A DNA stretch of 64,000 nucleotides from an uncultured Pelagibacteraceae bacterium (GTDB lineage Bacteria > Pseudomonadota > Alphaproteobacteria > Pelagibacterales > Pelagibacteraceae): NCBI GenBank assembly GCA_902543245.1, contig CACBXQ010000003.1:35285-99284 (forward strand), read 5' to 3'. How positions within the stretch are numbered: the first letter of the stretch is position 1; every line of letters starts with the position of its first letter. The position numbers and the translations under genes are program-made. The notes beneath the pieces were generated by a model. That model made no database searches. It had not been told where the DNA came from and saw only the letters and a list, made by a program, of their open reading frames with translations. Positions 62,844 through 63,897 of the stretch are shown here, one piece after another.

Positions 62844-63773
62844 ATGAAAATTTTAGGAATAGGTAATGCAATTGTAGATGTTATTTGCAAAGTTGATGAC
62901 GAATTTATTATTAAAAATGAATTAACAAAAAGTACAATGAAATTAATTTTTGATGAAGGCGAATTTAAAAGTTTATTATCAAATTTAAAAATTGAAAAAA
63001 CTGTATCTGGTGGATCAGTTGCAAACTCTATTGTAGGCTTGTCTCAGCTTAGAAATGAGGTTGGTTTTATAGGTAAAGTTAGTGATGACGAATTAGGTGA
63101 AAAATATGAAGAAGGGTTAAAACAAGAGAATGTTCAATATTTTTATAATAAGAAAAAGGAAGAACTTCCCACGGGTACTTGTTTAATTTTAGTTACACCT
63201 GACTCTGAAAGAACGATGTGTACATTTTTAGGAACTGCGGGTAAAATTAATGAGGACGATGTTAGTGCTGATGCTATTAAAAAAAGTGAAATAATTCTTT
63301 TAGAAGGATACTTATGGGACGAAGGAGATCCAAAAAAAGCTTTTGAAAAAGCAATTCAAAACGCAAATAAAGTTGCAATGTCATTGTCAGATCAGTTTTG
63401 TGTTGATAGACATAAGCCTCATTTTTTAGAATTAGTTAAAAATAAATTAGATATAACATTTGCTAATGAACAAGAGATAATGTCATTGATTGATGCTAAG
63501 TCTTTTGACGAAGTTATTACATTTTCAAAATCACTTAATAAAATAATTGTTTTAACTAGGGGCGAAAAGGGTGCAATTGCAATTAACGGGAATGAAGTTG
63601 TAGAATGTGGAATTAAGCCAGGCCTTAAAATAATTGATTTAACTGGGGCAGGTGACCTATTTGCTGGGGGATTTCTTCATGGACATGTAAATAATATGAC
63701 TTTGAAGGAAAGTTTAGACAAAGGAACTGAAATGTCATCTAAAGTAATCCAACAAATAGGTGCAAGACTTTAA
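62844..63773 (+). CDS. PfkB-family carbohydrate kinase (adenosine kinase-like)
   Basis: 309-aa ribokinase-fold kinase. N-terminal LGIGNAIVDVICKVDDEFI and GGSVANSIVGLSQL form the substrate site. IDLTGAGDLFAGGFLHG has the catalytic Asp and anion hole. Closest by pattern to alphaproteobacterial adenosine/sugar kinases, including the short KLIFDEGEF insertion near the N-terminus. Substrate probably a nucleoside or sugar; unproven. 2 bp after nth. Confidence 0.88.
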   Translation: MKILGIGNAIVDVICKVDDEFIIKNELTKSTMKLIFDEGEFKSLLSNLKIEKTVSGGSVANSIVGLSQLRNEVGFIGKVSDDELGEKYEEGLKQENVQYFYNKKKEELPTGTCLILVTPDSERTMCTFLGTAGKINEDDVSADAIKKSEIILLEGYLWDEGDPKKAFEKAIQNANKVAMSLSDQFCVDRHKPHFLELVKNKLDITFANEQEIMSLIDAKSFDEVITFSKSLNKIIVLTRGEKGAIAINGNEVVECGIKPGLKIIDLTGAGDLFAGGFLHGHVNNMTLKESLDKGTEMSSKVIQQIGARL

Positions 63774-63786
63774 ATTATTACAAAGA

Positions 63787-63897
63787 TTACTTTTTTTTTC
63801 TTTTAAAACTACCTTTGCCTTTTTTTGGTTTAACAATTTGAGGCTTGTATTTTTTTGAAAGTAAATCTTTTGCTATTAAATTTTTTTTTTTTTTCAA
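63787..63897 (-). CDS. ArfA-like ribosome rescue peptide
   Basis: 36-aa basic peptide starting at TTG 63897. The N-terminal run of Lys is followed by LIAKDLLSKKYKPQIVKP and then KKGKGSFKRKKK. ArfA proteins have the same plan: a short helix, xLxxPLFRxRVEK, then KKGKGSYxRK at the end of the functional part. The TTG overlaps the upstream response-regulator stop as TTGA, a coupled arrangement. ArfA recruits RF2 to ribosomes stalled on broken mRNA. Assignment rests on the KGKGS(F/Y)xRK core and size. Confidence 0.6.
   Translation of the reverse strand: MKKKKNLIAKDLLSKKYKPQIVKPKKGKGSFKRKKK

Follow-up and report, generated by a model that had tools for sequence, protein, structure and literature searches.

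A putative minimal ArfA encoded beside a regulator gene in Pelagibacteraceae, with relatives in marine phages

SAR11 bacteria are among the most abundant bacteria of the sea. ArfA frees stuck ribosomes; its hallmarks are RF2-dependent peptide release on nonstop ribosomes and synthetic lethality with ssrA, and its typical, though not family-defining, control operates through a nonstop mRNA, produced by way of a hairpin inside the ORF, whereby tmRNA represses it. We asked whether a very short ORF at the edge of a 64,000-nucleotide stretch from an uncultured Pelagibacteraceae bacterium (the window) encodes an ArfA, and in what form. A survey of 15,259 genomes in 2024 recorded arfA in 0 of 2,376 alphaproteobacteria (PMC11633108), and according to a 2019 paper ArfA is confined to certain members of the beta- and gammaproteobacteria (PMC6881298). 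A sequence-only reading of the window had proposed an ArfA-like peptide, calling it unusual for SAR11, and had described ArfA as defined in gammaproteobacteria, which is correct for that class but leaves out the betaproteobacteria, where ArfA also occurs (PMC6881298).

On the minus strand, from 63897 to 63787, the ORF runs from TTG to TAA over 36 codons and its product is MKKKKNLIAKDLLSKKYKPQIVKPKKGKGSFKRKKK; the same coordinates on the plus strand had no open frame in our reading of the window. The short peptide was thus confirmed at 36 aa, and its strand is the minus one. The TTG start within a TTGA overlap, also part of the sequence-only reading, was found as described, the TGA of the regulator gene (63896-63894) sharing bases with the arfA TTG, and the short block that it had placed ahead of KKGKGSFKRK, 'KPQIVKPKKGKGSFKRK', occurs exactly in the translation. 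The peptide tail stops right after KKGKGSFKRKKK. Since the run of 14 A adjoins the start (Table 1), a homopolymer assembly error could displace the start codon, though it would leave the conserved core in place.

Table 1. Features at the arfA locus, in window coordinates
Feature	Position	Strand	Remarks and evidence
ArfA-like peptide gene	63787..63897	minus	36 aa, TTG start, TAA stop; PF03889 25.7 bits; kept in genus and family
KKGKGSFKR codons, residues 25-33	63799..63825	minus	ArfA mRNA-channel motif (E. coli 33-41); alignment to E. coli ArfA chains
N6 to Y17 codons	63847..63882	minus	Counterpart of the RF2-contacting segment N14-F25 of E. coli ArfA; ungapped, equal spacing; hhalign with known ArfAs
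14-A run right behind the TTG start codon	63881..63894	minus	Direct reading; possible slippage or assembly-error site
OmpR-type regulator gene, 3' end, cut off at the contig end	63894..63998	minus	TGA overlaps arfA TTG; PF00486 24.6 bits
pfkB-family sugar kinase gene, convergent	62844..63773	plus	PF00294 153 bits; arfA stop 13 bp away; neighbour in relatives with and without arfA alike

Comparison with the Pfam ArfA model (PF03889) gave the window peptide 25.7 bits, only 0.2 above the gathering score of 25.5, in a match that spanned residues 12-36 only. All 24 aligned relatives matched PF03889 and no other family (E <= 0.01, best 2.6e-8), which upheld the proposed ArfA likeness. A profile of the relatives had six matches in the PDB, all of them E. 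coli-type ArfA; the alignments had no gaps and paired SAR11 residue n with residue n+8 of E. coli ArfA. In addition, hhalign of the SAR11 profile with 13 ArfAs collected here yielded a probability of 97.6 and an E value of 2.7e-12 over 35 columns. The channel-binding motif KKGKGS(Y/F)xRK is present in the window peptide as KKGKGSFKR and GGQ, the hallmark of ArfB, is absent from it; no NCBIfam model matched the peptide. The ORF is real, and its product is a reduced version of ArfA within that sequence family, with what appears to be a different control. The sequence-only reading had named missing ArfA-profile similarity and an unconserved frame as grounds for giving it up, and both parts went the other way (for conservation, see below).

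That reading had also proposed a survey of SAR11 genomes for the peptide, ssrA and arfB. Relatives of the peptide were found at E <= 2.4e-8 in 47 of 61 same-genus genomes, many of which are incomplete, and order-wide profile matches at E <= 0.1 in 240 of 298 genomes, the majority with E < 1e-12. Among the weak matches we rejected L034, L035 and L054 (f2 genus g4), which matched a conserved gene by chance and on the wrong strand, and L053 and L307, which are unrelated and lack the motif. Purifying selection acts on the frame: the pooled pN/pS was 0.21 in frame versus 1.0 in the +1 frame (114 distinct core sequences). Positions N6, L12, K25, K26, G27, G29, S30 and R33, and with them the KKG.GS and R of the motif, were invariant at 128 of 128 loci; residue 17 was aromatic in every case (Y or F), and the basic tail was more strictly kept than the N-terminal half. 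The stop fell three residues past the final Arg of the motif at 93 of these 128 SAR11 loci. The nearest in-frame start was ATG in most relatives, GTG at 13 and TTG at 18 of the 128 loci, and the overlap with the regulator stop recurred as ATGA, GTGA, TTGA or TAATG.

The Pfam model at its cut-off recovered PF03889 in 60 of 398 Pseudomonadota genomes, and in 7 of 386 alphaproteobacterial genomes, 2 of these SAR11. Other alphaproteobacterial ArfA candidates were L059, L061, L062, L063 and L356. Strong in-ORF hairpins were present in three of these non-SAR11 genomes (L059, L062 and L356), while that of L061 sits within an open frame that runs on; nonstop control may thus exist in alphaproteobacteria outside SAR11. 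Within SAR11, arfA is carried by G012, G581 and G437 (putatively HIMB5, IMCC9063 and HIMB114) and is missing from G487 and G488 (putatively HTCC1062 and HTCC7211). These two model strains appear to be without arfA, which may be why the gene was overlooked in the group.

The upstream regulator frame closes with ...THTVETHIYRLRKKILDTFNDNSLIKSSELGYSI, where an OmpR-type DNA-binding domain has its C-terminus. As contig and window end together, only a 34-aa fragment is available, which scored 24.6 bits with PF00486, just under the cut-off of 26.2; full-length relatives of the regulator pass it. The commonest place of the gene in relatives was the 3' end of the regulator gene, opposite pfkB, and the regulator motif was found at 111 of 128 loci. 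In L013, L014 and L019 an extra gene separates the regulator from arfA and pfkB still adjoins; in genus g5 arfA follows a different gene, which itself follows the regulator; in genus g271 (L295) another regulator gene precedes it and it starts at an ATG of its own; and in several genomes its ATG lies tens of bases past the regulator stop or behind another gene. Where arfA is missing, the convergent stops of regulator and pfkB nearly abut, so that presence and absence are clean. The regulator genes next to arfA span 6367-6930 in L032, 7356-7931 in L033 and 6398-6976 in L036.

The suggested coupling to a two-component regulator needs qualifying. An OmpR-type DNA-binding domain does adjoin the gene, but no receiver domain was matched by Pfam in the N-terminal ~100 aa of the two regulators tested (the L033 and L036 proteins), and the "two-component" link is therefore weak. 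The regulator beside arfA is likely degenerate and phosphorylation-independent. We regard arfA simply as the last gene of the regulator's transcription unit, which it closes, sometimes with another gene between; the likeliest role of the neighbour would be to supply transcription and translational coupling.

As for the rescue inventory of the lineage, the window's genome has an alpha-type tmRNA (alpha_tmRNA, E 7.4e-69), as have 22 of 22 well-assembled relatives; it also has SmpB, the partner of tmRNA in trans-translation, which was found in 21 of 21. ArfB, scored by the cut-off of NCBIfam PRK09256.1 (GGQ domain and basic tail), was found in 0 of 61 genomes of the order, the matches being the GGQ parts of RF1 and RF2. 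RF2 was present in 11 of 11 well-assembled relatives; a search of the window's own draft (G000), which is 80% complete, yielded no RF1 and no RF2, probably owing to an assembly gap. In E. coli the RF2 residues touching ArfA are Trp319, Phe217 and Val198 (PMC5378476); in the SAR11 RF2 of a same-genus relative, Trp319 and Phe217 are identical and Val198 is replaced by Ile.

E. coli ArfA has ~70 residues, and RNase III cleavage yields the nonstop mRNA from which its active form is made; the protein was functional when truncated at Asn47 but not when truncated at Met40 (PMC5378476, PMC4245945). The "abbreviated form" of the sequence-only reading proved apt: the SAR11 N-terminus is ~8 residues short and the tail finishes level with E. 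coli Lys44, i.e., between the two truncations. Among the N-terminal RF2 contacts of the E. coli protein, Leu19, Leu24 and Phe25 (PMC5378476), the first two are Asp and Lys in SAR11 and Phe25 is Tyr17, with Leu20 kept as Leu12. Betaproteobacterial ArfAs vary at these positions too, and the short N-terminus is common to them, other ArfAs and SAR11. The distinguishing feature of SAR11 lies at the 3' end, where most copies lack a hydrophobic or AA-ending tail and the gene has no hairpin (mean z of in-ORF hairpins +0.44 in SAR11, n=32; the gammaproteobacterial genes had -6.2 and the other short ones -3.0). SAR11 arfA thus appears to have shed the nonstop control loop, and production of the peptide is accordingly more likely constitutive.

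We consider it very probable that the gene encodes a minimal ArfA, which would perform RF2-dependent nonstop rescue as a backup to tmRNA-SmpB in an ArfB-less lineage. Once a ribosome has run to the end of a stop-less mRNA and stalled there, the peptide would occupy its A site and thread the basic KKGKGSFKRKKK tail into the vacant mRNA channel, and the N..A..L....Y segment would touch RF2 and open it, so that RF2 releases the nascent chain; at 36 aa the peptide would fold in contact with the ribosome and not by itself. Since its mRNA, unlike that of E. coli ArfA, has an ordinary stop codon and lacks an internal hairpin, the peptide would probably be made constitutively and not just upon tmRNA failure, its translation being coupled to the upstream regulator gene through the TTGA/ATGA overlap. 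Homology, partner genes and selection are the basis of the predicted function; ribosome binding, RF2 binding, rescue activity and constitutive expression are all predictions. Points that weigh against this reading are the narrow Pfam margin and the partial span of the model match, the Asp and Lys in place of Leu19 and Leu24 with Tyr for Phe25, the tail end between the functional and the non-functional truncation, and the failure to find RF2 in the window's own draft.

The partly kept RF2-binding hydrophobic patch (positions 11, 16 and 17) leaves room for a rescue factor of the same kind that, having lost the Leu19/Leu24 patch, would use RF1 as well as RF2 in the manner of Francisella ArfT, which is 40 aa long, has a basic tail and works with RF1 or RF2 (PMC6299226). 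We judge this unlikely: the sequence clearly belongs to the ArfA family, whereas the similarity of ArfT to ArfA is described as low overall, and Trp319 of the switch loop is kept in SAR11 RF2. A basic RNA- or ribosome-binding peptide that retains the ArfA channel motif but has lost release-factor activation (e.g., a hibernation or competitor peptide) is more improbable again. It would agree with the stricter conservation of the basic tail relative to the N-terminal half, with an N-terminus shorter than that of E. coli and with the embedding of some phage copies in larger proteins (see below); yet the N-terminal spacing and N6, L12 and Y17, unneeded by a mere tail, are kept across hosts and phages, and equally short N-termini occur in betaproteobacterial and other ArfAs.

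We give almost no credence to the view that there is no separate gene, only a regulator whose C-terminus is prolonged by a frameshift, or an ORF that arose by chance in lysine-rich, A+T-rich DNA, even though a TTG start, an overlap with the regulator stop and a 14-A run at the start are what the window presents. Against it stand the genomes in which arfA has its own ATG tens of bases past the regulator stop or behind a different gene, among them the g271 locus with its different regulator gene, and the in-frame pN/pS; relocated copies together with selection rule out a regulator tail made by frameshift.

At least 131 viral contigs, mostly marine, carried a relative of the ArfA core, in bare and fused forms. 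Eighty viral loci were read in detail and gave 51 distinct cores, present as bare peptides of ~30-50 aa, with an N-terminal MPGKWDG.SR extension, or inside 90-146 aa proteins with further basic segments; all eight phage copies tested were over the PF03889 cut-off. The host regulator adjoined arfA at 0 of 80 viral loci, and the viral neighbours, identified by eye, include clamp-loader-like, DNA-polymerase-like and terminase-like proteins; given the missing regulator motif and such neighbours, we rejected host contamination of the set. The embedded-core contigs were L214-L216, L230, L232-L236, L239, L246, L263 and L274, and their proteins have an N-terminal segment SKNIRKLKKEG.PQ.QAVAIALS and a C-terminal TVNKAGNYTKPTMRKRLFERIKAGGKGGAPGQWSARKAQMLA, among which Pfam sees only ArfA (two proteins tested). 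PHROGs 37108 and 20887, whose function is unassigned, match SAR11 ArfAs weakly.

Isolates with the core were pelagiphage HTVC027P (host HTCC1062), roseophages, Caulobacter phage Cr30 and Citromicrobium phage RXM. These matches came from a longer phage homologue as query; the 36-aa peptide itself, compared with the isolated phages by tblastn, had returned no matches, probably because of the low-complexity filter. HTVC027P gp30 was reported as ArfA in 2025, with high expression early and late in HTCC1062 (PMC12753301), so a phage ArfA is in itself not new. This phage carries ArfA while its host (putatively G487) appears to be without arfA. Hosts and phages were interleaved in a tree built from the 28-residue core, with 6 changes, at least 4 of them forced by well-supported branches, which is consistent with repeated exchange as far as so few columns allow; for the same reason the transfers can be neither dated nor given a direction. 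The close phage copies, one of them in a phage infecting an arfA-less strain, suggest that marine phages may supply ribosome rescue during infection.

Related peptides extend beyond the motif. SAR11 genus g270 lacks KGKGS and has MKRNPIAKALRTPKFKKKVIKDKKKYNRKKVKKYF, which lies at the cut-off of PF23876 (DUF7230). The sister family f2 has a small 'MVEKRRLKSNPIARELRTTKYK...' peptide, MVEKRRLKSNPIARELRTTKYKPHKIQNKKK...; the g270 and f2 peptides alike combine the N-terminal segment of ArfA with a different basic tail. The f2 peptide, of 42 aa, is conserved as MVEKRRLKSNPIARELRTTKYKPHKIQNKKK(I/L)QERKRVKIK(V/I) (L297, L298, L303-L305) and had no Pfam match. In L303 it lies between short-chain-dehydrogenase-like and nitroreductase-like genes (identified by eye). 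A six-sequence g270/f2 profile matched ArfA profiles at E 1.1e-7 and 6e-9, values that lysine bias may inflate. The DUF7230 peptides of L314 (near 1501-1670), L306 and L302 resemble ArfA without GKG in the motif. Both arfA and brfA have a terminator-like hairpin inside the ORF, and the alphaproteobacterial L314 gene has a terminator-like GC-rich stem with a T-run inside its own. By its Pfam model DUF7230 is rare (2 of 398 Pseudomonadota genomes), and none of the papers searched mentions it. Tentatively, and with more doubt than confidence, SAR11 and marine phages might share one host-virus-mobile pool of stripped-down, probably constitutive ArfA, brought by phages such as HTVC027P into hosts without ArfA such as HTCC1062, with the core lying within a wider family in which DUF7230 would be an unrecognised family of rescue factors.

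The occurrence in SAR11 is indeed unusual when set against the 2024 survey: arfA is widespread in Pelagibacteraceae, where that survey lists none among alphaproteobacteria (PMC11633108). Since these Pelagibacteraceae are ArfB-less, a candidate for the backup of tmRNA can now be named and tested. The SAR11 form also indicates how small an ArfA may become in evolution, and that an arfA gene can shed its nonstop-mRNA control loop.

Among known systems, the closest likeness is to the ArfA of E. coli and other gammaproteobacteria (YhdL, PF03889), with which the SAR11 peptide shares an identically spaced N..(I)...L....(F/Y) segment, the KKGKGS(Y/F)xRK motif, and organisms equipped with tmRNA-SmpB and an RF2 bearing the contact residues. 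It differs in the shortened N-terminus, the end at the Lys44 equivalent, the ordinary stop codon, the missing in-ORF hairpin and hydrophobic C-terminus, and the replacement of Leu19 and Leu24. The short proteobacterial ArfAs of families f183 and f190 (e.g., MSKKAPKRPNKAKSIVAQPLFRSRQEQPKKGKGSYRREA...) have an equally short N-terminus and the KGKGSY motif, but, unlike SAR11, a longer, often AA-ending tail and a significant in-ORF hairpin (mean z -3.0). ArfT of Francisella and BrfA of Bacillus are likewise small, basic, release-factor-recruiting backups to tmRNA, but are described as sequence-unrelated to ArfA (PMC6299226, PMC6881298); compared by its published description, the ArfT tail is KKGGSTNKK, not KKGKGS, and so differs from that of SAR11 (PMC6299226). 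Gp30 of HTVC027P and the other phage copies have the same core sequence as SAR11, and differ in their frequent MPGKWDG.SR extension or embedding in proteins of 90-146 aa and in having no regulator neighbour at any of the 80 viral loci.
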